In this document: positions 2,852 to 59,946 of the stretch, in pieces | Position numbering within the stretch: position 1 is the stretch's first letter | How the letters are laid out: every line of letters starts with the position of its first letter | Assembly: GCA_002946415.1 (NCBI GenBank) | Contig: NJPS01000041.1 | Span: 682,001-746,000, forward strand | DNA from: Rutstroemia sp. NJR-2017a BVV2 | Lineage: Eukaryota > Ascomycota > Leotiomycetes > Helotiales > Rutstroemiaceae | DNA: 64,000 nt | Direction: 5' to 3' | Notes under the pieces: generated by a model | Told to the model about the DNA's origin: nothing | Seen by the model: only the letters and a program-made list of their open reading frames with translations | The model's database searches: none | Translations under genes and position numbers: made by a program

Positions 2852-3644
2852 CTACGCACTCCCATTCACCTCATCCACCACCTCCACGAACTCATTCCAA
2901 ACACTTCCCTCCGCCTCATACCCCCCACTCGTAATGAACACCCCCGCAACGCCGGCCTGCACCCAACTCTGCACCAAGCTCTTCATCTGAGCCTCCGTAC
3001 CCGAGAAATCATTCAGCATGACCGAGCTCTTGCTCATCTCCGCGCCAATCGCACTAACCTTCCCTCCCTTCCCAGCCGTAAAATCCTCATAGTCGTTTTC
3101 CAGCGCGAGGATATTGTCCGCGAGAGCGTAGAACTGGCTTGGGACCGTAGTTCCGGGGTTGAGGGTGACGGTTAGGTTGAGGGAGTGGGCGAGGGTGGCG
3201 ATGGTGGTGTGGTAGTTGGAGGAGGTGGTGGTCCAGGTGTCGATTATGTCGTCGAAGAAGATGCCGTCGAGGTGGATGTCCTTTTCGGTGTAGGTGGACC
3301 AGTATTTGTCTGGTGGTGATGTTAGTCATAGGGTAGGGGATCGAAAGTTGAGGGTAATGCTTACAAGTCTCGACTTCAGTGGATACTTTGTCAGTGCTTT
3401 TGCTCATATAGACTGTATCAACATAGCCGAGGAGGTTGACATTGGGATACACGTTCAAGGAGGCGATGGCGTCGATGAAGTCAGATGCCGGATAGTCGTT
3501 GGTAACACCTGGGCCAGAGTTTGGATTGACAATGATATTGAAAGGAACATCAGGGTACTTGGCAACGGCCGTAGTAACGAAATCCCAAGCACCTTGAAGA
3601 GGATAGATGTAAAGCGGCAGAAGAATCGCTGCTGCGGAAACCAT
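2852..3644 (-). CDS. Spherulin-4-like (spherulation-specific family 4) protein
   Basis: Two exons on the minus strand, 3644-3365 and 3309-2852, joined over a 55 bp intron (donor GTAAGC, acceptor CAG, phase 1), give 245 aa. Family hallmarks are visible: LLPLYIYP at the N-terminus, then FNIIVNPNSGPG (about residues 35-46), NLLGYVDT (about 69-76), and DGIFFDDI near the middle. These match the TIM-barrel-like spherulin-4 family of fungi and slime moulds, related to putative glycoside hydrolases. The Asp pair after GIFF would be the candidate acidic active-site residues. No clear signal peptide is seen from the chosen ATG; the segment before PLYIYP is short. Function in fungi is not settled. It may act on cell-wall galactosaminogalactan-type polymers, by analogy only. 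Confidence 0.88.
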
Positions 3645-5608
3645 TGTGGAATTTTTGGATTGGGGTTTGAAGTATGTACTTAAAAGTCAAAGATGGATTC
3701 TACCTTTCCAAATCGCTGCGAATAACACTCTAAGAAGATGGAGGTGCAGTGGATGTACGGAAGTAATATATATGCATCCTCTGCAGTATTCCGACAGACA
3801 TGCTATAGGACGATGTTATTCACCGCGCCCGCGCATCTAGATTTTGATGTCATACAGACACACGGATACAAGCATGATAGCCAAATTTAAGGGGGATGTG
3901 ATTTACAATCATCCAATCATCCTCCACCATCCATGAGTGCGGTCTTCGGAAAGCCTAATCATTCGCTTGTTTCAAGCAGATTGGTGAAGGATCTTGATTA
4001 AAAAGGACTTTCGCAAACGTCGAATGCTTTGAAACAAAAAAGAAATCAAAAACAAATATCGGAAATTAGCGGCACGCACCCCGCCAGATCTGAAAGTGGG
4101 GTTGTCGATCCTTCGATATTAAACGAAACCGGAAGACTTGAAAGGCGTACACGACAGCCCCATTCTTGATTCTTGGGATGATCTGCGGCGGGTAGCTCGA
4201 GTATGGGATTGGAAATTCGTGGTGTGAATTAACCTTAAACTTTGCTGTACCCCCAGATCGGATTAACACATGGAGAAACTGTAACAGCCAGCCGCCCTCG
4301 ATTCGAGTGAGTTGCGGCGAAGTTGATAGTAGGATGCGGATAGTCCTTTCAGCACTTGCTCTAAGAACTATGAAGCGTTTAACGGGCAAAATGTGCATAT
4401 GCCCATTATCGTTGTCGCTTGCTTGCCCGAGGAATTTCTAGGCAACAGAGCTTGGCCATCGCGAAGGTGATGCTCGTCATCTGCGTCGCGTGATATTCCC
4501 ATGTTCAATTGCTCCAAGTTTCCAAGAGAGCTCTGTTTAAAGAAGGCATCATTTCGCGTCCGCAATGAAAGTTTGGAAGAGCTTGATTTGTAGTTAACTG
4601 GACCTAGCCGACGACCAAGACTGATAATTGAGTCTAAGAGAACGACCACCGGTCAAAATTCATACAGGCGCCTTGCATAATATAGTTGAACAAACAGCTT
4701 TGAATGCGTTTGAGAGAATTATTCACTCCATGTGCTCGGGAGGTATTGTAGAAACAGTTCCAGAGAATATTGTCTACGGCGTTATGATAAGATTGAGTTG
4801 CACGGTCATTGAAAATCATCAGCTTACATATTCTAAGCTTGTCTGTTCTACCTTGTTTGTTCTACCCTGAGGCTTAGCCCATCATCCATGGAAGCTGTAA
4901 GTATTACATGAAGCAACAGTTGTATAACTGAAGCCTCCAGCCTCACAAATCTACAACCACGTACATGCAATCTCGGTACTACAATATTCTGAGGTTCTAG
5001 CTAATACCAGTAATTGAAGCAAATAATCAGTGCAAGTGACACGAATCACTCTGAAGCCACTTTTCTCTTCTAACCAATTATTAACTCAAATATTGGATGA
5101 TGACCAAATGTTGGATGACAACCAAAAGTTGGATGACCAAAGATTGGATGATAACCATTTTCCAGTCAAAAAATCTGGAGCTTTCAATAGATGGAGCTGT
5201 TGGTTAGAGAAGTTGCTTGACACCATGACCAAAATTCGAATAACTGCAGCTCAACACCAACAACGGTGCCAACATCAACAGCAAGAGCGGGGCTTAAATC
5301 GTTGGAATAAGCAAGTGCTGACTTCAGCTACATAGAAAGCAAAACCTATACTGGATGTAGTCGCAAGCCCTACCAGAAAAGACAGTGGCGGGGTCAATGC
5401 TGTGAGTACCTCGTAACAGCTACCTATGGGGGCAACGATGGCGGTGATGATGAGACTGCAGCATATTCCGAATGTATAAATCCGAACTTCCCTCCAGAAG
5501 CTTGAGACAGAACTGATCCATCGGCAAAGGACCATATTGAAAGAAGGGTGTCTCGCTGGAAGCAACATAAGATCATCACGTAAAACCCAGGACACTTTCG
5601 AAGAAATC
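3645..5608. other. Two-kilobase stretch without a convincing gene
   Basis: Minus frames of 60-137 codons occur here (for example within 4066-4819 and 5275-5688). None shows a known motif, a good start context or coherent exon joins. One piece near 5290-5480 on the minus strand is hydrophobic enough to encode membrane helices and could be a relic of a membrane protein, but I cannot support that. The only clear structure is the 18 bp repeat at 5093-5161. Confidence 0.4.
5093..5161 (+). repeat. Minisatellite with 18/15 bp units
   Basis: Four units start at 5093, 5111, 5129 and 5144, each beginning ttggatga and continuing as y-a-a-c-c-a-a-like. Lengths are 18, 18, 15 and 18 bp, so every unit is a multiple of three. 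In one plus frame they read LDDDQM, LDDNQK, LDDQR and LDDNHF. The surrounding frame is short (about 100 codons) and not recognised as a gene. Confidence 0.8.
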
Positions 5609-6409: not shown

Positions 6410-6914
6410 TGCTGAAGTCTGGAGGAGGATTGGATTAACGATTTGATTATTTGAAGAGTTATGCCCGTGTGATTTCGATAGTTCGTCGCGGCGCGCCGTG
6501 TAGATTCTGATTCTGATTCTAATTCTCACATTAGAGTCAAGTCGGATGATTGCCATATAAATAAATATCTGCTCAGCGTCTATACCTATACACTGAGGAT
6601 TGCTTCATAGATATTGTGAACACGAGTGTTTGTGTGTGAATCGCGCATCGTCGAGGATGGTGTTGGTATCTGTTAATACTTCTGGGTTAGTGTTGAGCGG
6701 TGAAATACTTTTAACCTTACTGTCGCGAGTTGCGCGGGTTGCAATGCATCACATAAAGATGATTTCGGGTGATGTTCCTCCAGTTCTCTCCCTGTGGTCT
6801 GTGTCTTTCGTTCTCAGAAACCCCCACTATGAAGCAATATTATTCATTACCAATATATTTTCTAGTAATGGCTTCTCGTCAACCACTTCCAATAGATAAC
6901 TACTGGAATGCAAT
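6410..6914. other. Intergenic stretch before the tRNA gene
   Basis: It holds the 3' region of the acetyltransferase gene and a short gattct repeat (four copies near 6503-6526). A plus frame of 99 codons at 6600-6899 has no recognisable motif. Confidence 0.4.
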
Positions 6915-7050
6915 GCCCTGATGGCGCAGTGGTAACGCGTGTCACTTGTATCTAATACGAAATGACAAGATCCCTAGGTTAGTTCATCTCCGATGCTCAG
7001 TCCTCACTCCATTTACTAACATCTCTATAGTTCAATTCTGGGTCAGGGCA
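6915..7050 (+). tRNA. tRNA-Thr(UGU) with two introns, one in the T arm
   Basis: The cloverleaf can be laid out base by base: acceptor 6915-6921 with 7043-7049 (seven pairs), discriminator A7050, D arm 6924-6938, and anticodon stem 6940-6944 with 6963-6967. Loop CUUGUA gives anticodon UGU at 6947-6949. An 11 nt intron (6951-6961) sits right after position 37, the canonical site. The T stem CCTAG (6973-6977) pairs with CTGGG (7038-7042), and the T loop is TTCAATT (7031-7037). Between stem and loop lies a 53 bp insertion, 6978-7030. It starts GTTAGT, carries TACTAAC at 7014-7020 and ends CTATAG, which is the form of a spliceosomal intron. The A box (TGGCGCAGTGG, 6922-6932) is perfect. The B box GTTCAATTC (7030-7038) is also perfect because the insertion's last G serves as its first base. 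The one weak point is a C-A opposition at the inner end of the D stem. Confidence 0.85.
6978..7030 (+). other. GT-AG intron-like insertion at tRNA position 53/54
   Basis: This 53 bp segment has donor GTTAGT, a consensus branch site TACTAAC (branch A at 7019, 11 nt from the end) and acceptor TAG. Its length equals the protein-gene introns nearby. Removing exactly this GT-AG segment restores a standard 5 bp T stem and 7 nt T loop. The heptamer TAGTTCA occurs at 6980-6986 and 7028-7034, so a duplication origin is also possible, but cutting between those copies would leave a 12 nt loop. Confidence 0.75.
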
Positions 7051-7058
7051 GATTTATC

Positions 7059-7078
7059 TTTTTGAGTTCTTTTTTTTT
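7059..7078 (+). terminator. RNA polymerase III terminator
   Basis: A run of five T (7059-7063) begins nine bases after the tRNA 3' end, backed up by nine T at 7070-7078. This fits Pol III termination and shows that the transcription unit is complete on its 3' side. Confidence 0.75.
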
Positions 7079-14116: not shown

Positions 14117-15536
14117 ATGTTGTCCGAAGAATTCATTACCGCAATCAAAGCGCAGCCAAGATCTGCAAACACGGCCATTGCCAAAGATGTGGGAATTTAC
14201 CACCATACATTGCACCCAACTCCGTCGATTAAATCCAGCTACAAGAAAAGCTCCTCGCCGGTAAACGGTTTGGCTGCCAATTCCACTCATATCTTCGCAG
14301 CACAAGCAGACAAGGCCGTGGTCCATGTTTACTCCAGGGAACGCGGGAACCAGGAAGCGTTAATTTCCTTTCCCGAAAGATTGCATGCATTGATGTTGGT
14401 CGGCGATGGCGTCTTGGTGCTCGGTACAACGGAGGGTCGCGTCATATTGTGGGAGGTATGTTCTGCAGCTTACTGCTCTCCTTCCCGAAAACGTGAAAGA
14501 CTCGTGTATTAATTACGAATGACAGGTTTGTACCGGCAGACAGGTCTCAACATCAGCGGCACATCTGCAAGCAGTTTCATGTCTTGCCGCTACCTCTACT
14601 CATCTCATTACGGGCTCCGATGACTCGAATATCCACGTCTGGTCAATTCCGCAGCTTCTATCTTTGCACACGAACACAAACGAACCGCATGAACCTGTCC
14701 GAACCTTGTCGAACCATAGAGCCGCCATCACTTCCCTGGCGATGGGTCACAGCACGAGTACAACAAACATTTGCATATCGGCGAGTAAGGATAACTCAGT
14801 TATCGTTTGGAATTACCACACGGGTGATCTGCTGCGTACCTTTCTACTCCCAGGCACACCTCTATGTATGGCGTTGGATCCGTGCGACAGAGCTGTTTAT
14901 GTCGGGTTCGAGGATGGGTCGCTGCAAATGATCGACCTTGTCCAGTCCAACTCCGCAATACACCCTCTTCATGATCCGCGACTTCAAAATACCCCCGTAC
15001 AAATCACCGTACCTGCGTGGACGGCTCCATCGGAAATTGGCGCTGCACACTGTCTAGGGCTGAGTTACGATGGAACAAGCTTATTTTCGGGACATGCTTC
15101 TGGAAAGATTGCGCAGTGGGATACTGGTCGACGCGCTTTCTTGCTGGAACTCGCAGATCTAAATGCGCCCGTAACCAATATTGCCATGCAATCCCCCTTT
15201 CCCAAAACCCCTAGAACTAAGCCGCATAGTGTTATCAAACCTAGACTCGGCGAGGGCAATTATACCTTCACAGCTCAATTGAATGAGACCAAAGACTCAT
15301 CACTTTTTAATCAAGCCCTAGTGTTTGAAGGATTCCCAGACGGGATGCTTGAGAGTGCAATTTCAGTACTCGCCGGATCAACGGCTACCACTAATATCTC
15401 TTCATCTTCATCCTCCAGCGAGGAAGAAAGGTTGCGCAAAGAGAACGAAGAATTGTGGAAGGTTATCAATGAGCAACGTGCTCTGCAGAAGAAGACCTTT
15501 GAGAAGTACTCCAAACTCAAGAACGGTAGCGTATGA
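14117..15536 (+). CDS. IPI3: Pre-rRNA-processing WD40 protein Ipi3
   Basis: Exons 14117-14455 and 14526-15536 join in phase 0 over a 70 bp intron (donor GTATGT, acceptor CAG) to give 449 aa. The N-terminus MLSEEFITAI is the characteristic start of fungal Ipi3 proteins. WD-type strands are visible at RVILWE, NIHVWSI, SVIVWNY and GKIAQWD, giving a beta-propeller of about seven blades. The C-terminus is a Ser-rich linker followed by a coiled segment of Glu/Lys/Arg (from about residue 405 to the end). Ipi3 works with Rix1 (Ipi2) and Ipi1 in the Rix1 complex, which matures ITS2 and helps the 60S pre-ribosome leave the nucleolus. An ATG context next to the conserved MLSEEF decides the start. The gene is expected to be essential and constitutively expressed. 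Confidence 0.92.
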
Positions 15537-16265
15537 AACTAAAAGTCTTGTTTGCCTTGGTTGGTTTCAACACTTGTTACATGGGATAGTCGTTGTGTCG
15601 TGTTTGACTCAATCCAAAACAAACCCAGCCAGGACAAATTGGCATCCAAATGCCGCACCAACATTCGGTAAGAGCCGCAAACTGCTAGGCGCCTCTCATG
15701 TTGATTCGTCTCGAGTCATACTGTGAGTACGCAAGCTTTTCCATGCCATCCATGGCGCACGGATCTCGTGCTGGAAGGAGCAATGTTTGCGCTTTATCAC
15801 TCAAGAGTCAGGATAGAGCCGCTCAAGGACTGGGCATGAATTCTCCCTTATTAGAAACCTCACGCGTATGGAACTTGTTTGTATCCTAGGCTCTTGGACC
15901 AGGCGGCCACTATTTCTGGACCGAGAAGATAACGATAGCTTCCGTGCATCTCAATCTGCGCTTATGTGTTTCCAAGGTTAGACAGTAGTAATTGTTAAGC
16001 GGTAGGCTATGTCTATATCTCCGCTGTCAAATCTCAATGGGGCATGGAATGTCCCAAGAATCTAATTTACAAATCTAAAATGGAGACAGCTTTATTCTGA
16101 AATCCCATCCAAAAGTTCGTGATCGTCCATAGTTTCAGTTGAGGCCAATGCTCAAACTTGCCCATGCAAATTGCAGACCATGAATGTGACATACTTATGA
16201 TTGATCCCCTCCTGTATAGTTGCTTTTTGAAATTCAGATGCTCCAGTTAAGCACCGGGAGGGAAA
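15537..16265. other. Intergenic stretch, nothing recognised
   Basis: This is the 3' region of IPI3 and the promoter region of the sedolisin gene. No open frame with a known motif and no clear repeat are seen. Confidence 0.4.
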
Positions 16266-18361
16266 ATGAGAACCAACGCTGTCGTGTATGTCATAGCTGC
16301 CCTGGTGGTAGCGGTATGTGCATCGCCAATTTCACAAACGACGAATACTCATGCGAATACTCACGTCGTTCACGAACGGCGGTCCGTAACACCGCAAAGG
16401 TGGTCAAGAAGTGCCCGACTCCACCCCGCTGCGACATTTCCAGTGAGCATAGGTCTAACGCAGCAAAATTTACATCGCACGGAGGAATTCATCAACGAAG
16501 TCTCTCACCCAGAATCCAAACTGTATGGTCAACATTGGACCCCTGAAAAGGTCGCAGCAACTTTCTCGCCATCTCAGGAGACGATGGACGTGGTTAGAGC
16601 TTGGTTATCGGAGTCTGGAATTGACCCGCTACGAGTTAAGATGTCCAAAGGAAATACTTGGATGACATTCAATGCAACAGTCGCCGAAGCAGAAAATCTC
16701 CTCAAAACAGAGTATCATGTATATCAGCACGATCTCGGCCACAAACATATTGCATGTCATGAGTACAGCATTCCATCCCACCTCACCGAACACATCGATT
16801 TCGTTACACCCACGATACACTTCGATAAGAGACTCGGGACGGAGCGCAAACAGCAACATCATGACTTACCGGGCCCATTGGAGGCGTTAAATAAGCGTGG
16901 TGTCAAACCTCATGGAATTCTTGGTATGCCGGATGATGCGTCTAATCCCAAGCAAGGCGCGCAGGTCACAAATGCTCTTATGTCGCTGAAAAACTGCGAT
17001 ACGATGATCACCACGCAATGTCTCCAGGCGTTGTATAACTTTCCCCCCGGATCGAAGGCCGCATCCAACAATACCTTAGGAGTTGTCGAATATACACCGC
17101 AAGCATTCCTCCAGACTGATCTTAACATGTGGTTCAAACAATTCCAACCTAATCAGCAGAACATGGCCCCGATTGTGAATTTGATAGACGGCGCTGTGGT
17201 GCAGCAGACAAATCAAAGTTTTCAGTTTAACGGTGAATCAGCCCTCGATCTGGAGTTCGCCATGGCATTGGTAAACCCTCAACAAGTTACCGTCTATCAA
17301 GTGGGTGACTTGGTTGAGGGTGGTTCCTTCAACAACTTCCTCGATGCAATTGATGCATCCTACTGCACCGCCGACGGAGGAGACTCCAAAGATCCCAACG
17401 TCGACGGACAATATCCCGATCCCAAACCTGGCGGTTTCACCGGCCAACTCCAATGTGGAGCCTTCCAATCCACCAAAGTAATCTCCACATCCTACTCCGC
17501 CAACGAAGCCGACCTCTCCGCAAAGTACGAGCGACGCCAATGCAACGAATACATGAAGCTCGGCCTCCAAGGCGTATCAATCCTCTACTCCTCGGGTGAT
17601 TTCGGCGTCGCCGGCAACGGAGGCCAATGTATTGACTCCGTAACCGGTGCATACAACAACGGCTCCTCCGGCATCTTCAACCCCTCATTCCCAGGAACCT
17701 GCCCGTACGTCACCAGCGTCGGCGCCACCCAAGTACTCAACGGCTCCACCGTGCACTCTCCCGAATCCGCCTCCCAGCGCATCATCTTCTCCGGCGGCGG
17801 CTTCTCCAACGTCTTCGCCATGCCCGAGTACCAGAAATCCGCCATGGCAGCCTATTTCGCGCAGTCCAATCCGCCGTATTCCGCAGCCCAGTTCAATAAT
17901 TCCCAAAAGGTGCGCGGCTACCCGGATATTGCGGTCAATGGCGTGAATTATGTGACGGCAGTGAATGGGAAGTTTAGTCTGGCGTTCGGCACAAGTGCAA
18001 GCTGTCCGGCGTTGGCGAGTATGATCAATCTTATTAATGAGGAGAGGATTGCGGCGGGGAAGAGTAGTGTGGGGTTTGTTAATCCGGCGTTGTATGCGAA
18101 TCCAGGGGTTATGAATGATATTACGACGGGGACGAATCCGGGCTGTGGAACGAAGGGGTTTGAAGCCGTGCCGGGGGTGAGTTTTCCTATTTTTCTTGAA
18201 TATCTGATTTGTATCTTGGTCGCTTCCCCTCGTTCAGGTTTTCTCGTTCGGAAAGCAATCGTTAGAATCGTTCACTGACTTCTGAGTAGTGGGATCCCTT
18301 GACGGGAATGGGAACGCCGAATTATCCTGCTATGTTGGATATGTTTATGAAGTTACCATAG
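16266..18361 (+). CDS. Secreted tripeptidyl-peptidase, sedolisin family (S53)
   Basis: Exons 16266-18176 and 18290-18361 join in phase 0 over a 113 bp intron to give 660 aa. The second exon supplies the conserved WDPLTGMGTPNY ending. A signal peptide (MRTNAVVYVIAALVVAVCAS) leads into a pro-domain of about 200 residues, as in fungal sedolisins. Catalytic residues are visible: E324 and D328 in GESALD, an oxyanion-hole Asp in SSGDFGV, and Ser577 in GTSASCP. The enzyme should be secreted as a zymogen, mature at acid pH and remove tripeptides from N-termini of extracellular proteins. The family often serves nitrogen acquisition. Ca-binding Asp residues are expected near the C-terminus (NDITTG). 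It resembles the SED/TPP group by length and motifs. The exact paralogue cannot be assigned. Confidence 0.93.
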
Positions 18362-18907: not shown

Positions 18908-20860
18908 TCAACCTGCCAACCCCTCAACCTGCCAACTCCTTCCCAAAAACCCCGCACCTCCCTTCCCGCTCTTCTCGTCCTCCTTCATCATTCTCAGCAC
19001 CAACTCCCCAAACAGTCCATTCGCCCACCCGAACCATGCCCTGGTCCAATTCGACTCTGCCCATGCATTCACACTCTCATGAATAACACCCGTCCCATCC
19101 GTCGAATCCAGAATCGACATAACCTGCCCCACAACCTCCTCTTCTATCTCTTTCCGCGACTTCCCCAATGTCTCACCCTTCTCAAACGCAGTGATTGCTC
19201 GCACAATCGCAGCCATGGGCCACGGTTTGCCTGGTCCGAGATGTGGACCGCCGACAGCGGAGAGGACCGGTCCAGTCATGAAATAGGGGTTGCTGGGGCT
19301 GAGGACAAAGTTGCGGGTATTGTTGTAGATTTTGGTGTGGTCTATTGGGGGTTCGGACTTGGGGAGTGGGAAGGACGAATTGTCATAGTCGAATAGAGGC
19401 ATGGAGAGAAGGGACGGTACGTTTGCGTCGTCCATGAGATTCGCACCTCCGTATCCATCAATTTCATATGCCCAGATATCGCCAAATTCACGATGATGTA
19501 CAACTGCGTCTCGGTCGATGGCTTTTCGGATACCGAGAGCGAAGTCGAGCATTTCCGACGTTAAGTTCTTGGCTTTCTCTCCTTCTAGCTTGCCCATGAT
19601 CAAGGAAGCTTCTTCGAGATACTTCGCCCACATCATATTTGCAGGGACTAGAAGTTGGTAGATACATGCGTCGTCCGATGGTCGAAATGCACTTCTCACC
19701 ATTCCGTTTTCCTTCGTGGGATTTCCCAATCCGTCATTGGATAAGGTCTCCGTACCACGATTCGTCCAGCCGGTGAAGGTCCACGCAGAATGCTCGACCT
19801 TACCCTCCTTACTATACGTTCCTAATCTCATCGCGCCGGCTGCTTCAACAGCTGCTTTCACTGCGTCAATCCATTGATACTTCTGGAAAAACGCGAGGTC
19901 TTTCGTCCTCTCATAATAAGCAGTGGAGATTTGCAGGAATGACGCCAATGAGTCCAATTCCCACTTGCAGTCAAAAACTTTCTCTGGGTTGTAAGGAGGC
20001 ATGGGATGGTTCTGGCTGTAGGCCCCATTTCTCGGACGCTCCAATCCAGACTCTGGAGGTGGTTGGAAACTATGACAATATGGCGAAATAAGGATATATC
20101 GGGCATGCAGATTTATAACACCTCTCCATAAACTCGCGAGTGAGTCGCGATTATCCGACGCCTCGAGAAGAGGCAAGTAAGAGTAAATCTGTGAAGCAGA
20201 ATCACGTAACCACATCGCATCAATATCACCAGTAATCACAAACGCCAATTCCTGGTCCGTAACTGTCTGATTTTTCGTAATAGGATCGATCTCTGTAGCG
20301 TATCCTCGCCATTTGATGGTTGTGTCGAGAGTATTCGGATAGCTGTTTTCGAACAATCGGAACAAATCAGGATCTCTGATTATGCCCTTCATCTGCTCGA
20401 TGAGCTTTTCTAGCGATGGAAGATTAAAAGTACGACATTCTGGAGCAGGACGCGAATAGGGGAATTTCCGTTGCCCACCCGACAGTGGTCCTTGCTTCAT
20501 GTGTTGAAGTTTTTCGTAGCTTGGACAAGTGATGGGTGGTGGCGAAGATGTGGGTATTGATTTTGGAGGAGGTGCTTCGCCGGTTGGCGTGGTCTGGATC
20601 GGTTTGGCATCTTCGACGAGAAGCGTCTCACTGGTCTCATCGCTCTTTGGTTTGGATTCTGCAGGTGGTGATTCGGGAGTTGTCGGTGAAAGAGCAGGCT
20701 TGTTCAAACTATCCTGATTGTGTGAAGATGCTGTCGCTGGATTATTGGTTTCAGGGTATTTCCACGTGACGTACTCGCTCTTGCTGTAAAAGGTATATAC
20801 AAGGACGGAACTCAAAAGAAATGCAATGATCGCAATGCGACGGAACTGTATCCGCATCAT
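18908..20860 (-). CDS. GH125 exo-alpha-1,6-mannosidase, Mug157-like
   Basis: One uninterrupted frame of 650 aa. The open frame extends upstream, but the first ATG codons in it are at 20860 and 20857 (MMRIQFRRIA), so I start there. A type II signal anchor follows at once (about residues 9-24, IIAFLLSSVLVYTF), so the protein is lumenal in the secretory pathway. A Pro/Ser/Thr-rich stem of about 80 residues precedes the catalytic domain. GH125 signatures are clear: DIDAMWLRDSASQIYSYLPLL, ISPYCHSFQPP and CKWELDSLASFLQIS. Known GH125 enzymes trim alpha-1,6-mannose from N-glycans. The S. pombe homologue mug157 is up-regulated in meiosis. The likely role is Golgi glycan or cell-wall mannan processing. 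Confidence 0.92.
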   Translation of the reverse strand: MMRIQFRRIAIIAFLLSSVLVYTFYSKSEYVTWKYPETNNPATASSHNQDSLNKPALSPTTPESPPAESKPKSDETSETLLVEDAKPIQTTPTGEAPPPKSIPTSSPPPITCPSYEKLQHMKQGPLSGGQRKFPYSRPAPECRTFNLPSLEKLIEQMKGIIRDPDLFRLFENSYPNTLDTTIKWRGYATEIDPITKNQTVTDQELAFVITGDIDAMWLRDSASQIYSYLPLLEASDNRDSLASLWRGVINLHARYILISPYCHSFQPPPESGLERPRNGAYSQNHPMPPYNPEKVFDCKWELDSLASFLQISTAYYERTKDLAFFQKYQWIDAVKAAVEAAGAMRLGTYSKEGKVEHSAWTFTGWTNRGTETLSNDGLGNPTKENGMVRSAFRPSDDACIYQLLVPANMMWAKYLEEASLIMGKLEGEKAKNLTSEMLDFALGIRKAIDRDAVVHHREFGDIWAYEIDGYGGANLMDDANVPSLLSMPLFDYDNSSFPLPKSEPPIDHTKIYNNTRNFVLSPSNPYFMTGPVLSAVGGPHLGPGKPWPMAAIVRAITAFEKGETLGKSRKEIEEEVVGQVMSILDSTDGTGVIHESVNAWAESNWTRAWFGWANGLFGELVLRMMKEDEKSGKGGAGFLGRSWQVEGLAG

Positions 20861-21227
20861 GATGTAGAGATATTGAATGGCGATATCGACTTCGATACCA
20901 ATCCCATTGTCTTCATCCGTGTAGTTGATCGCGTAGTTGGTTTTGTTGTTGCTGTTGGTTTCATGAAAGAAAAGGCCAGACAATCATCATGCAAGGAAAG
21001 TAGTGCGCAGAAGACTTAGCTGCTTCTTCCTTTCACTACTTACGGAGTACAGAGTCAGAGTACAGACTAAAACAGCCCCCTCTTGGACCTCTTGGACCCT
21101 GACTAATGGAAACCCAGCGTGCCAGCTATCATATTTCGTACTCCGTACAACACGGTTTCCACTGTGGTTGTCGACTTGTCGGCTTGGCAGCGGTAGAACA
21201 CTTTAGCCGCACCACTGCTCTCTCCAT
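20861..21227. other. Promoter region of the GH125 gene
   Basis: It contains the motif TACGGAGTAC at 21041-21050 and its inverted form GTACTCCGTAC at 21138-21148, about 100 bp apart. No gene is seen. Confidence 0.45.
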
Positions 21228-40160: not shown

Positions 40161-40254
40161 TGGAGCGGCAGGGAGTCGAACCCTGGACTTCATCGACGCG
40201 TTTTCTCCTAGGAGAATATGCAAACGAGGCACTCTACCACTGAGTTACAGCCCC
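40161..40254 (-). tRNA. tRNA-Ala(UGC) with a 22 nt palindromic intron
   Basis: On the minus strand, G1 is at 40254 and the discriminator A at 40161. The acceptor stem has the G3-U70 wobble that marks tRNA-Ala, with one mismatch at pair 6-67. D stem ACTC/GAGT and T arm CAGGG-TTCGACT-CCCTG are perfect. The anticodon loop TTTGCA gives UGC (40222-40220). An intron follows position 37 (40218-40197), and its core TTCTCCTAGGAGAA is a perfect palindrome. One of five anticodon-stem pairs is mismatched (C-T). Both promoter boxes look good, and a TTTT terminator follows within about ten bases. The two mismatches mean that a decaying copy cannot be excluded. Confidence 0.85.
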
Positions 40255-41814
40255 ATTCGTCAACAACGCAACTGGTTGTTGTATCACGTGCCTTGCTATA
40301 GACATTTATATTTACTAACTTAATTGATGCTGGCTCGCCGGTTCCCTGATCCTCAGGCAACACATAGTTCAGGCATCAAATTGAACTGTTCGAAATCAAT
40401 TGCGACAGCACCAATTTTTCAAGTCAAGCACCATTATATTTCCCCAACAACTCATCATGCCGTTGTTTCGCGCGAAGAAGCTCGACTTGGGATGCTTCAT
40501 CAATATCAAGGTCATTCGAGACCACAACAAGCGACAGGTCTTTTCTGAGCATGAAACAGAACGGTAAGGTTTTTGGCATTTCCTATCACTTTCCTTTACT
40601 ATCAATCCTGCGCCCAAAGTAGCCCATGCTGACTGCCAATAAATAGACAGGCTCTTCGATATATCGTCCGCAATCTCTCCCTTCCTGCCCGTACGCGATT
40701 CCAAGCACAATTAGAATTGACGCGGATGCACTGCTACACGAGGCCAACACAAATACGGAATCGTTGCATAGAGGGTGGTAAAGGGAGGGGTATTTTGAGG
40801 GACTTCAAAATGTCAAGGGTACGTCCGGGTGCATCGAAGTTGTTGGACGAGATTGGGGGCAGTGGTGTCAGAAAGCTCAATTGTGCTAACAAGTTTACTG
40901 TACCAGTACAATTTCCGTATGAATGCGCTGGCCGGCAACCTACCAGGTGTGAAGAAGGCGAGTTGGTAAGGACGAAAGGAGGCGAGTAACGTCCGGGGCG
41001 GGGCGGAGCGGGGCGAAGACGGATCGAGCCTGGAGCTTCGACACACAGCGCACTTTCGAAGTGACCACGATTACGGCTGGACGATCAGGTTATTCCTCAA
41101 ATTGTACATATACCGGGGGACTTCTACTGTAAAATATACATGGGCCGCGGGAATAGATGCCTTGTTGCTGTAGAGGGAGTTCTGTGCTGTAGAACGGGTT
41201 GCGAGATTCTGCCGAGGAAAGTCGTGGGGTTGATTCCCCAGAAGCATTGAGGTTTGGTCTTCTGCATGTCTTCACCCCGAATCGTGAGCACATTGCGCGT
41301 GAGATCTGTTGGTACAACTTCTGGTCTGAAGCTCTTTCTTTGATACCTACGAGGGCGCCACCCAAATCATTCGAGACATTCCAAGAGACTGCGCAGTTAC
41401 TCGTCGAGCAGCTCAACTTGTCTTATTTATCTAGGTTGCTATTGGAGCGGTAGGTTGTGATGATTCTTGGGTAACTATCAGCGACCAGCGATTCTTGCAA
41501 CTTCCCACCGCGAAGACAACCCCTCTTCAGCCTTGCAAGAAATACCCACACAAATTTTCACTCTCGCACAACTTCACAAGCAAACACCTTCACAAGCAAA
41601 CAACTCCACAAGCAACCATCTGAACGATCGACAAGACTTCTGAGCAGGGCAGCTGTAATGCACTGCTTTACCATCTACATTCACTACTACTCCCGTACCT
41701 CTTGCACTTTCAACCTATCTACTTGACTTCCACTTCTTCATTTCAACCAATCTACAACCACTGCATTGCACACAGCTAGCCTCTCTTCATCAACTTATTC
41801 ACAATTAAGACAAT
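40255..41814. other. Gene-free 1.5 kb upstream of the Arb2-domain gene
   Basis: Short frames only. It holds a GC-rich ggggcgg/ggagcgg run at 40996-41019 and a cacaagcaa repeat (three imperfect copies, 41571-41617). A CT-rich leader runs into the start codon at 41815. Confidence 0.4.
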
Positions 41815-43098
41815 ATGTTCCGCAGACTGCGTTCTGGTCTTCCTAAGGATCCCACCTATCCGCCAACTCTCGATGGTCTTGGGTACTTTGTAAATGAGAA
41901 TGACGAGATCAGAAGCATCGAAAATCCAAAGGCTTACTTCAAATTTTTCTTGACCAAGAATGAACGCTATAACCTTGTTCAGCGTGAAGCTATGAATAGT
42001 TGGTACTTCTTCTTCCCTTGTGGGTCGTTACTAACCTTTCATCCAGAAGCAATTCGTGACATTGTCGAGGAAAGACTCCTGGCAATCGGCCTCCAGAAGA
42101 CTGTTATTCCTCTCAACGCACCAGTCACAACCCCACACCTGCACATTTTCACTTCCTCAAATCTTCCTGTCGCCCGACGCATCATTGTCGTATTTTATGA
42201 ACCGAAGGATGACATTGGAGTCTTCGCGCATCGGATGATCGGTGGTGAGGGTGGAATCAACGTCGGATCAGCAGTAAATCTGTGCAGATACATTCAAGGA
42301 CAACACACATCACCAAATGATTTCTCACCACCGGCTATCATACTCGCCAACATGGGTCAGCTTCGTTGGTGGCGCAAAGGCCAAAAAGCCGTCACACAAA
42401 TGACATGGTTCGCACTTCCACAAGCTAGTGCCGTCGACAAGCCATACCGGTTTGACAAAATCAAAAACACCATTGAAGGAAATCGCAATACAGATGAACA
42501 TATAGATTACATCTTCAACCATGTGATCTCGGAGCTTGGACATCCTGAGGCCAAGGTTGATGTTATTGGGGTATCCGAAGGTGCCATGGGAGTCTCTCGT
42601 TTCCTGGAGCAGCCTGCCAACTGGGAGAAATGGGAATCTCGAGTACAAGCATTCGCTGCTATTGCAACATGGTATCAGTCAACCGATTGCAAAAATCCGA
42701 AGTTCTTGGCATGGATGCTTGCTCGAAGTCGTGCCTACACACTTTCTGATGAGCCAGCGGGAACTTTTCTTATGGGACCCGAGGGCAATAAGAGATCTTT
42801 CGGGCATGGCAGTCCGGTATTCAGCTTGGGCGAGCCGTTTTACAGCGAGCGCATGTTACCGAAAGGCTACAAGACAGTACTGAATTGGTTTCAGGAGGTT
42901 GCCGAAGTCGACGATACTAAGGACGGCGGTAACGGTGTCGGTTATCGTAACCCGGTGTTTTTCAGACAGGACGATGATGACGATGATTATACTGATCTTG
43001 GATTTGGTGATGAGGGGTTCGGAGACGAGGAGAGAGGCGATGGTATCGAGTTGAAGATAGAGGATGGTTCTGCTGTGCGAGAGGATGAAGACAAATGA
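41815..43098 (+). CDS. Arb2-domain protein (alpha/beta-hydrolase-like)
   Basis: One exon of 427 aa. The N-terminal third has the Arb2-type opening (LDGLGYFVNENDEIRSIENPKAYF) and NERYNLVQREAM. Then come IFTSSNLPVARRIIVVFYEP and a stretch matching the serine-hydrolase-like core. GVSEGAMG carries a Ser (residue 254) in a nucleophile-elbow-like G-x-S-x-G setting. The C-terminal ~55 residues are very acidic (QDDDDDDYTD and later Glu/Asp runs). Arb2 of S. pombe works in an Argonaute chaperone complex that handles small-RNA duplexes. Filamentous fungi have several Arb2-domain proteins, so a role in RNA silencing here is possible but not shown. No signal peptide is seen. Confidence 0.8.
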   Translation: MFRRLRSGLPKDPTYPPTLDGLGYFVNENDEIRSIENPKAYFKFFLTKNERYNLVQREAMNSWYFFFPCGSLLTFHPEAIRDIVEERLLAIGLQKTVIPLNAPVTTPHLHIFTSSNLPVARRIIVVFYEPKDDIGVFAHRMIGGEGGINVGSAVNLCRYIQGQHTSPNDFSPPAIILANMGQLRWWRKGQKAVTQMTWFALPQASAVDKPYRFDKIKNTIEGNRNTDEHIDYIFNHVISELGHPEAKVDVIGVSEGAMGVSRFLEQPANWEKWESRVQAFAAIATWYQSTDCKNPKFLAWMLARSRAYTLSDEPAGTFLMGPEGNKRSFGHGSPVFSLGEPFYSERMLPKGYKTVLNWFQEVAEVDDTKDGGNGVGYRNPVFFRQDDDDDDYTDLGFGDEGFGDEERGDGIELKIEDGSAVREDEDK

Positions 43099-47539: not shown

Positions 47540-50303
47540 CTACATCAAGGCTGGAAGCGTTTCAACTATCACCGGCTCTCCAACAAGGGAGAAATTGAAT
47601 ACCAGAATTTCATCCACATCTAGTGCAAGCTTGTAGTCGCCTGGGAATATTACAAGATTTCCGGTCTCATCTGCTCTAGCCAAAGAACCAAGAGTGAGGG
47701 GAAGCCGGAGTTCCTGGGATCTACCAATGGGAATGTCGTGAAGACGCGAATATGACACAAGAGACTTATTTGGACGTGGGGCGGGGCCCGCATTGGCGCT
47801 GGAAATGAAAAGCAAGCCAACGAAGTCGCTTACGAAGTGGCCCGTATTTTCAACAGCAACTGAGACGTCTGCGAACGGAGTGCGGTCATTTATCGGACCA
47901 TGTGATCGAGATTGGTCAACCAAAGCTTTTATGTTGTATTCTTGCTTTAATTTGGACGTCCAGCGAAGGTCGAACGTCGTGTAATGAAGGCCATAGCCAA
48001 ATGGAAGGACCGGCTTGCCAGTATACCATTTGTATGTCCGCCCAGGAAAGGTGTTGTTCGGGGATAGATTAATATCAAATATGCTGACTTGATCAGCATA
48101 GCTGGCCGGGTACTGCGTGACGGGAAGCCTGCCAGCGATAGACTTCTTGCCTACTAGCACGTCCAAAAGAGCTTGGCCACCCGCCTGACTAGGATATCCG
48201 GCCCAGATCACAGAGTTTACATGTGCGTTTGCCAACAAAACACTGTCGTCTAGCTGTCCACCGCCAAACTGTATTACGACAAGAGGCTTCGACAACTGAG
48301 AAAGTTTGGCAATGAGATCGAGCTGATTGCCTGGCCAAACCAGAGAAGTGCGATCAAGTTCTTCCGCCTCTATAGAGTTATCGATGCCACCAAGATAAAT
48401 GATCAAATCGGAATTTCTAGCCGCAGTAAGGGCAGCTCCGAAGCCAGTTACGTTTTGGCCATTGATTGTTGTGCCCATAGCATAGGTAACATCCCACCCA
48501 GTATAATTTTCGAATGCTTGGAGCGGGCTCTGCAAATACGGCGCAGTGCCAGAATAGTCCCCTTGCATTTGTGTTGTGGCGTTAGCAAATGGCCCAATGA
48601 TAGTGACCTTTCGACGCTTCTGGGATTGAGATAACGGAAGCGTCCTATCATTTTTCAGCAGGGTCATGCCTTCCACGGCTGCATTGTAAGCTAGAGCTTG
48701 TGCTGCGGGAGTGCTGACATCGGAGAAATCTAGGGCGTGATACTTGCTCCTATCAAAAAAGCCCACGGTGAACAAAGCTGCATAAAGTCGCGTCAATGCA
48801 CCATCTATTCTGGCGACATTGGTTTGGTTCATGGCAAGTGACTCGTTGAGCTTGACATACGACGATCCACATTCGAGATCCGTCCCAGCATTAAGGGCTA
48901 ACGAAGCCGCAGCTTCTTCTGAATCCGTGAATTTATGATTCTGCCAGATGTCTGTCACAGCACCGCAGTCCGACACGATGTATTGGTACTCTGCCGTAAA
49001 ATTCCAATGCCCCCGCAATACATCCTGGAGAAGATATTCATTTGCGCAAGCTGGAACCCCATCAACTGCATTATACGAACACATGATGCTTCCGACGTTC
49101 ACATCTCTGACGCATGTCTTGAAAGGCGCGAGGTAGTAATCTGCGAGATCTTTCTGCGTTGGGTTATAGTTATTTTCGTGCCTACCAGTCTCAAGATCGT
49201 AGGCCGCGTAGTGTTTGCAAGTAGCGATGGTCTGCTTTTGCAGGGGATCATCGCCCTGCAGACCCGGAACGAAACTTCTAATATAGCTTTGAATGTGGAA
49301 AATATCTTCACCCGGTGTTTCTTGCCCTCTTCCCCAACGAGGATCCCGGAATGCATTTATATTCGGTGCCCAAAAGTCGAAGCCGGAGAAGCCGTAGTTG
49401 CCAAATGCCCGGCCTTCCTTACCAACTACGTTCCCTATCGCCTGGATAAGAGCATCATCGAACGAAGCTGCGGATAAGATTGGGGCTGGGAAGCTTGTGG
49501 CATAGCTAAAGTTTGTGGGCTTTCTCGGAAATTGTACGCCAGGCGCGGAGCCTACACCATGCGTAGCCTCGCTCCACCACTCGTAGGATGGAAGCCCAAG
49601 ACGCCTGGATCCAGCCGCTGCATCGACAAGATTCAAAATCTTCTCTTCAAGAGTCATTGAATCCACGAGTGACGCTATACGTTTTGAAGTGCTCAATGAA
49701 GTGTCGCAAACTTTCTGAGAGCAAAGTGGACTTGTCTGGCATGCTGGCGTGAAAGCTGTGGTCGATGATCCTTCGCTCGCATTTCCATGGGGATTTTTGA
49801 TCTGGTACAGAGACATGCTACACGATGAAGTCAGCTAACCTGACGAGTGTCTGATTGTCTGTCTGACTTACACATAACCTCCACCGCATGCACTTGAAGG
49901 CTCAGTGACGCATTTCGAACTGCAAGAGGTATCGTTTGTCTTGGTTGCCTGGCTGAAATCGGGCTTAACGTCACAAAAGCATTGTCTATCGCGAGTATAA
50001 GTTCTGATCTTGCAACATGCACTTCTGAGAGAAGACATACGTGCCAAATTCGATTCCTCCATATGTATATCCACGCTCCCCGCACCAGTCGACGCAAAAT
50101 TGCGGTGTCATGGCGATAGTGCTGAGCTTTGCGGCAGATAAAATGCTCACACTCCGGTCAAGGTAACATCCCAGGTATGTTGCTGAAGCATTATATGTCG
50201 ATGTTGTGTTAGCTACACAAGAATAAATAGAAGAACTTGTAGCCGGAGCACATAACAAACACAGCAGCGCCACAGGTAGTAAGACTTTTGAAAGAGCCAT
50301 CAT
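47540..50303 (-). CDS. Secreted WSC-GH3 beta-xylosidase fusion
   Basis: Exons 50303-50041, 49985-49872 and 49817-47540 join in frame over introns of 55 and 54 bp to give 884 aa. A signal peptide (MMALSKVLLPVALLCLLCAPATSS) precedes a WSC domain (about residues 40-126) with the expected cysteines: YLGCYLD, FCVDWCGERGYTYGGIEFG, CFCD, then SSKC and ACGGGY. The second and third exons connect it to a GH3 beta-xylosidase whose own start would be MSLYQ (residue 127). GH3 hallmarks are GLPSYEWWSEATHGV, RDPRWGRGQETPGED, KHYAAYDLE and the nucleophile D409 in IVSDCGAV. The C-terminal domain ends in a fibronectin-III-like fold. It should release xylose from xylo-oligosaccharides outside the cell, with the WSC part as a likely carbohydrate anchor. 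Confidence 0.9.
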
Positions 50304-59420: not shown

Positions 59421-59946
59421 TTTCTGAAGGTTTAGATGAAAATTCAAAGTGCTCAAAGACTTAAGGCTGTCATTTTGGTGATAAATTCACAGGACAGATG
59501 CTTCCTAAAATAGCTATTATGAGAGCAGCGTGGAAGGGGGCTTCGGTCTTCGCCTTGCGGTGAAATGCCGAGCAGGCAGCGCTGATATGTAATACTTTAC
59601 CTGAAAAGATTTCGGTCATCGGATATATGATCTAGGTGATTTGAAATCAAACATCATATAATGCTGGGGTTGTGTCCTCCTGCATATACCAACAGTTGGG
59701 TGCACTAACATATTCGACAACCGAACGCTATACTAGTATGGAGGTAATTATACATGTAATTTACCGTACCAGAATAAAGTCTTTATCTCCGTCCGAGCTC
59801 AATTTGCCAGACTCCTCTTTAATAGTACTAATTCCATTTCTTCTTCTTTACATCTCCACAATACCATATTCCGCCCAACTCCTCTGTAGTTTTCGGATCA
59901 CGCATACCCATGCTCCTGTCTATCTATGTAGTCAGCAGCCACTAGC
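59421..59946. other. Intergenic stretch
   Basis: Nothing recognised. It lies between the divergent NmrA-like and MFS relics. Confidence 0.4.

Follow-up and report, generated by a model that had tools for sequence, protein, structure and literature searches.

The tRNA-Thr(UGU) gene described here is interrupted between tRNA positions 53 and 54 by 53 nt that very probably represent a spliceosomal intron of the U2 type within a functional gene, one of a genomic set that includes eight interrupted tRNA genes. The gene lies in a stretch of 64 000 nt from Rutstroemia sp. NJR-2017a BVV2 (C36:682001-746000, hereafter the window), part of an assembly of 43.4 Mb in 79 contigs. Because it also carries a canonical 11-nt tRNA intron, the best reading of its structure is that the precursor would need both splicing machines.

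The unspliced gene of 136 bp is matched by the RF00005 model in a cmscan search of the window (29.9 bits with a gathering score of 29; E 0.035), while ARAGORN calls no tRNA in it. With 6978-7030 removed ARAGORN does call a tRNA, its anticodon misread as Ser tga because the program shifts the 11-nt intron, and with both insertions removed it gives tRNA-Thr(tgt) of 72 bases. These calls bear out an earlier note on this DNA, which had proposed a tRNA-Thr(UGU) fold with a small intron after position 37 and had suggested running a tRNA model with and without the larger insertion. The acceptor strands occupy 6915-6921 and 7043-7049, followed by discriminator A7050. The larger insertion separates T stem from T loop precisely at their junction, as had been claimed, and its excision restores the T arm: CCTAG (6973-6977) pairs with CTGGG (7038-7042), including one G-U pair, around the 7-nt loop TTCAATT (7031-7037). 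All 20 scored stem pairs of the spliced molecule are standard, and it has a complete cloverleaf with the invariant bases.

The insertion ends in TAG and is also preceded by TAG, so its border is movable by 3 nt; one of the possible registers yields GT..AG. The TAGTTCA direct repeat (Table 1) may be a scar of intron gain by duplication. An A box, a B box and a T-run terminator are all present, the two boxes being identified by what we take to be their consensus, and a T9 run (7070-7078) lies beyond the T5 run. The B box stays whole because the final AG of the intron substitutes for positions 52-53. None of the 76 ORFs of at least 120 aa in the window overlaps the gene.

Table 1. Location of features in the window (positions without contig prefix) and elsewhere in the genome
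Feature	Location	Strand	Basis or remark
tRNA-Thr(UGU) gene, unspliced extent	6915..7050	+	cmscan RF00005, 29.9 bits; ARAGORN once insertions are removed
5' exon for the 53-nt intron, including the 11-nt anticodon intron	6915..6977	+	sequence, structure
A box (TGGCGCAGTGG)	6922..6932	+	sequence; presumed box consensus
Anticodon TGT	6947..6949	+	ARAGORN, doubly spliced form
Canonical 11-nt tRNA intron after position 37	6951..6961	+	4-bp anticodon-intron pairing TTGT/ACGA; ARAGORN
53-nt spliceosomal-type intron between tRNA positions 53 and 54	6978..7030	+	sequence, ARAGORN, matrix, scans
5' splice site GTTAGT	6978..6983	+	sequence; matrix score
Branch-site motif TACTAAC	7014..7020	+	sequence; matrix score
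3' splice site TAG	7028..7030	+	sequence
B box (AGTTCAATTCT), spanning intron end and 3' exon	7029..7039	+	sequence; presumed box consensus
3' exon: T loop, 3' T stem, 3' acceptor strand, discriminator A	7031..7050	+	sequence, ARAGORN
T5 run, likely Pol III terminator	7059..7063	+	sequence
TATA-like element, ~60 nt upstream of tRNA-Thr	6853..6858	+	upstream-element scan
TAGTTCA direct repeat (7 nt), 5' copy	6980..6986	+	sequence
TAGTTCA direct repeat, 3' copy, straddling intron-exon border	7028..7034	+	sequence
Spherulin-4	3090..3686	-	Pfam
Pro-kumamolisin protease	16251..18275		Pfam
GH125	18911..20983	-	Pfam
Arb2	41809..43095		Pfam
GH3	47543..49834	-	Pfam
tRNA-Arg(UCU) L063	C36:274449-274568		intron at 53/54
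tRNA-Arg(UCU) L064	C43 from 1643007		intron at 53/54
tRNA-Ser(AGA) L030	C43:1254735	+	variable-arm intron
tRNA-Ser(AGA) L031	C43:1256270	-	variable-arm intron
U6 snRNA gene L067	C23:42069-42174 and upstream		Rfam match begins inside intron

Splice signals were scored with a matrix made from 16 mRNA introns of the same genome, taken from four genes (three tubulin genes and Ipi3); two of these introns have an alternative end, and one end was chosen for each. They measure 51-136 nt (median 66.5), a range that includes the 53 nt of the insertion, whose length had rightly been likened to that of mRNA introns. The three signals listed in the note, GTTAGT, TACTAAC and TATAG, are present; the distance it gave from TACTAAC to the end, 11 nt, is 10 nt by direct count; by the matrix measure it is 11, compared with 5-24 in the mRNA introns. 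GTTAGT is weaker than most 5' splice sites, yet the total score of 18.8 still falls inside the mRNA range (15.4-23.5), as do the scores of all eight tRNA introns (18.5-22.8). Counting 100 nt on either side, there are 54 GT..AG candidates 40-140 nt long, of which the insertion ranks first. The intron defined by structure is locally first in five of six tRNA genes and second in the Ser(AGA) gene L030, and second also in the U6 gene described below. For each of seven introns, from six tRNA genes and U6, 0 of 20000 shuffles reached the score; this set draws on the Thr, Arg(UCU) and Ser(AGA) genes and U6, and two of its tRNA genes share intron sequence. In its GT-AG ends, the distance of its CTRAY branch motif, its length and the exact restoring of the junction, the window insertion has the properties of a U2-type intron.

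Seven tRNA genes beyond the window are interrupted too, and in all of them removing a GT-AG intron regains the cloverleaf. The intron stands at 53/54 in two Arg(UCU) genes (L063, L064), in the variable arm in three Ser(AGA) genes (L030, L031, L041), at 4/5 in Arg(CCU) (L062) and at 6/7 in Trp(CCA) (L052). The spliceosomal interpretation put forward in the note is thereby supported by seven further genes, by four positions overall and by an intron in U6 snRNA. In the Arg(CCU) gene, removing GTAAGT...TATTAAC...CCTAG restores the 5' acceptor strand GGCC+TGT, which makes 7/7 pairs with GCAGGTC, two of them G-U. The Trp gene reads GGACTG/GTAAGA...TTCTAAC...CAACAG/C, the slashes marking the borders; the border was predicted in writing before the upstream sequence was known, and the sequence then agreed. 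Its spliced form equals an intron-less Trp gene (L029) at 72/72 nt, and the flanks of the two genes are unrelated, with the alignment ending after a few nt. Exons of the Ser(AGA) paralogues are identical at 79/82 positions and introns at 40/55, with the splice signals kept. Two of these Ser genes (L030, L031) form an inverted pair ~1.4 kb apart with identical introns; a third, diverged copy is on contig C33.

An identical copy of the interrupted Trp gene (L053) is found at the same coordinate on contig C74. Contigs C25 and C74 carry tRNAs at identical coordinates (983632, 1047262, 1085899) and look like duplicate copies of one stretch, and gene counts in the assembly may therefore be inflated. 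C8 and C37 likewise share tRNA pairs.

Matrix-predicted introns were removed from 58 tRNA loci, a set from which identical stretches had been dropped beforehand, as had L010 (the same gene as L033). The cloverleaf improves in eight loci, which are the interrupted genes; 48 are not improved (35 without a candidate intron, 6 unchanged, 7 worse), and two initiator-Met loci are unparseable by the cloverleaf scorer, spliced or not. Gains are 5.5 for Arg(CCU), 3.5 for Thr, 2.2 and 2.2 for Ser, 2.0 for Trp and 0.7 for Ser L041. This last gain is the smallest, since the scorer is able to treat the Ser L041 insertion as if it were an anticodon intron. The Arg(UCU) pair is unparseable before splicing and parsed after it. 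A pair of neighbouring tRNA-like genes (L051; C34:1185243-1185388 and 1185557-1185693) with long anticodon-loop insertions, 65 nt in one, was rejected as a case of spliceosomal introns after splicing gave no improvement. Their anticodons read CAT and CGA in otherwise similar bodies, a possible anticodon switch.

A stricter scan covered both strands of the window and of loci of more than 2.5 kb around earlier matches (604,556 strand-bases including overlaps; the Trp gene L052 lay outside this set). It tried 916 introns and matched only at the loci of seven interrupted genes, with the same borders, thus recovering all those present in the scanned set; its reversed-sequence control yielded 0 matches from 1032 introns. 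The scorer and its cut-offs were devised after the interrupted genes were known, and recovery is therefore no independent test, whereas the absence of other matches is one. A simple genome-wide pattern (CTAAC, acceptor, T loop) occurs at 26 places compared with 50 in the reversed control, so that the pattern alone is unenriched. Splicing turns three of the 26 places into tRNAs, namely Thr of the window and both Arg(UCU) genes, and fails to do so at the other 23.

A single other Thr(UGU) gene was found (C34:798374-798460; L010/L033), intact and with an uninterrupted T stem CCTAG/CTGGG. The note had held that several intact UGU copies together with a drifting window copy would speak against its reading; one intact paralogue was found, and the window copy bears no signs of drift. 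As we read the alignment, differences between the stems of this paralogue and the window gene come as paired changes. Of the 160 pair cells in an alignment of eight spliced tRNAs, 98.8% are standard, and both-sided changes occur at 17/20 pairs, above controls. Its rows are mixed isoacceptors (three from interrupted genes, a Trp row identical to spliced L052, and others), and it therefore displays intact tRNA structure, not orthologous covariation.

Isoacceptor searches found two Arg(UCU) genes, three Ser(AGA) genes and one Arg(CCU) gene, every one interrupted. No intact gene for these isoacceptors was found in these DNA searches, whose queries carried introns, so that an intact copy would match by exon pieces only. 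The census is incomplete: the tRNA family search scored 63 of 1404 candidates, neither window tRNA among them, and a paralogue recovered with one query had escaped another DNA search. That all genes found are interrupted therefore does not mean that all genes are.

Most of the tRNA genes compared have a TATA-like element 30-65 nt upstream (39/55 rows, 37/51 distinct); four more distant intervals of the same width contain one in 17, 6, 1 and 4 of 55 rows. In the two genes with acceptor-stem introns the element stands at -53 (Trp) and -46 (Arg(CCU)) from exon 1; measured from exon 2, Trp lacks one within 75 nt and Arg(CCU) has only one, at -15. Transcription of these two would have to start far upstream of the A box, which is unusual for Pol III and counts against the spliceosomal reading. 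A run of at least four T within 40 nt downstream is present in 8/8 interrupted genes and in 46/55 tRNA rows, three Ser genes included. At 53/54 the intron AG completes the B box (AGTTCRA, by the presumed consensus), and this would explain why an intron is tolerated at this site.

The U6 snRNA gene of the same genome contains a 57-nt insertion of spliceosomal type (GTAAGT...TGCTAAC...ACCAG) between the GCCTTCGGGC hairpin and GTCAATTTGAAACGATACAGAG; the sequence just past the 5' hairpin and insertion is GTCAATTTGAAACG. We take the upstream hairpin to be the true 5' end of U6. The Rfam U6 model, in contrast, builds the 5' hairpin from intron sequence, and non-pairs result there. SRP RNA has no intron (281 nt compared with a 293-position model). 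Reference titles in PMC5832005 record that U6 introns are known in fungi.

Besides the tRNA-Thr gene, the window contains a tRNA-Ala(TGC) gene (40161-40254, minus strand; 46.8 bits) with an anticodon intron of ~22 nt; it is missing from the genome-wide family list, where similar copies are present. An Ipi3-like WD40 gene (14117-15533, plus strand) has one 70-nt intron, and the best named match of its protein is from Rutstroemia sp. NJR-2017a WRK4 (95%). For the GH125 protein it is from Clarireedia jacksonii (92%). A U54 snoRNA-like match (59450-59527, plus strand) reaches 28.1 bits and so falls short of its gathering score (40).

Introns outside 37/38, the T arm included, exist in archaea and Cyanidioschyzon merolae, as PMC9602550 and PMC4033280 describe, and the insertions might be cut like these by the tRNA-splicing endonuclease. 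Three of the seven introns outside 37/38 do reach a 4/4 exon-intron match, but so do 22-70% of shuffles, and at none of the seven is the match better than in shuffles (fraction at least as good 0.22-1.0); endonuclease removal is unlikely for this reason. For the 53-nt intron, no more than 3 of 4 pairs form at any of 16 offsets, a match equalled by 46% of shuffles; it stands outside 37/38 and has no exon-intron helix or bulge-helix-bulge above chance at its cut sites. The same gene's 11-nt intron is at 37/38 and shows the expected 4/4 pairing (by pair count; the shuffles covered the seven other introns). The insertions bear GT-AG ends and branch motifs instead, and the yeast enzyme, according to a passage of PMC4033280, is strictly limited to cleaving at 37/38. 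We reject this explanation, which we consider highly improbable. Chance resemblance or an assembly artefact is rejected as well and has a negligible probability. Loose GT..CTRAY..AG motifs are indeed no rarer than chance in the window (36, compared with a mean of 26.9 and a range of 13-40 in 20 simulated sequences, no clear excess), a count superseded by the matrix from real introns; two independent signals nevertheless coincide exactly in eight genes, the reversed control is empty and the Trp case was predicted in advance.

The interrupted copies could be dead pseudogenes with insertions, with translation served by intact copies, such as exist for Thr(UGU) and Trp and might exist for others given the incomplete census. 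However, stems and invariant bases are preserved in Thr and Arg(UCU) after splicing, spliced Trp agrees fully with its intact counterpart, the Ser exons are far better conserved than the introns, that same census yielded only interrupted genes for Arg(UCU), Ser(AGA) and Arg(CCU), and the downstream T run is never missing. The plain pseudogene reading is improbable on these grounds and is rejected. A further possibility is that Pol II makes mRNA-like host transcripts with ordinary introns, from which the embedded tRNAs are released after splicing: spliceosomal introns normally reside in Pol II RNAs, and the acceptor-stem introns sit upstream of the A box. Against such host transcripts stand the lack of an overlapping ORF of at least 120 aa at the window gene, whole A and B boxes, TATA-like elements and T runs resembling those of other tRNA genes here, and the same kind of intron in U6; we hold them to be very unlikely.

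If the 53-nt insertion is a spliceosomal intron, the window gene would be transcribed by Pol III from an intact A box and a B box preserved by the intron AG before TTCRA, with termination at the T5 run. The spliceosome would then excise 6978-7030 in the nucleus and restore the T arm, RNase P and RNase Z would trim the ends, and finally the tRNA-splicing endonuclease and ligase would take out 6951-6961. We infer that the spliceosome comes first because only its action would create the stacked acceptor and T arm on which RNase P, RNase Z and the tRNA endonuclease depend. In a wider view, to which we give good but lesser credence, the spliceosome would be an obligatory tRNA-maturation machine in this lineage of fungi: Arg-UCU, Ser-AGA and Arg-CCU would be supplied only by interrupted genes, Thr(UGU) would pass two machines in order, and spliceosome activity would limit the decoding of particular codons.

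Should the introns be spliced, a tRNA becomes a spliceosome substrate, given codons need the spliceosome for their translation, and a gene with an internal promoter offers a case in which to study intron gain. Presence and absence of the intron between identical Trp paralogues make gain and loss testable. ARAGORN is blind to the window gene and the tRNAscan-SE 2.0 search for non-canonical introns is, as PMC8450103 describes it, for archaeal tRNAs, so more cases may hide in sequenced fungi. Among the titles and abstract openings searched, mostly from outside subscription journals, we recognised no description of tRNA genes that carry spliceosomal introns.

The 11-nt intron of the window gene is of the same kind as canonical nuclear tRNA introns, which lie at 37/38 and are removed by endonuclease and ligase. 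The 53-nt intron differs from these in its position, in its spliceosomal signals and in having no anticodon-intron helix. Bulge-helix-bulge introns of archaea and C. merolae are similar in that the T arm and other arms are interrupted (PMC9602550), but those introns are defined by structure and cut by the endonuclease, whereas the introns here have GT-AG and branch signals and a helix at chance level. A further likeness is to the introns of fungal U6 snRNA and U3 snoRNA, in which an mRNA-type intron is likewise placed in a small structured non-coding RNA. U6 is moreover a Pol III product, and that of the same genome is also interrupted. The host in the present case is a tRNA, which sets it apart from the U6 and U3 cases as they appear in PMC5832005.
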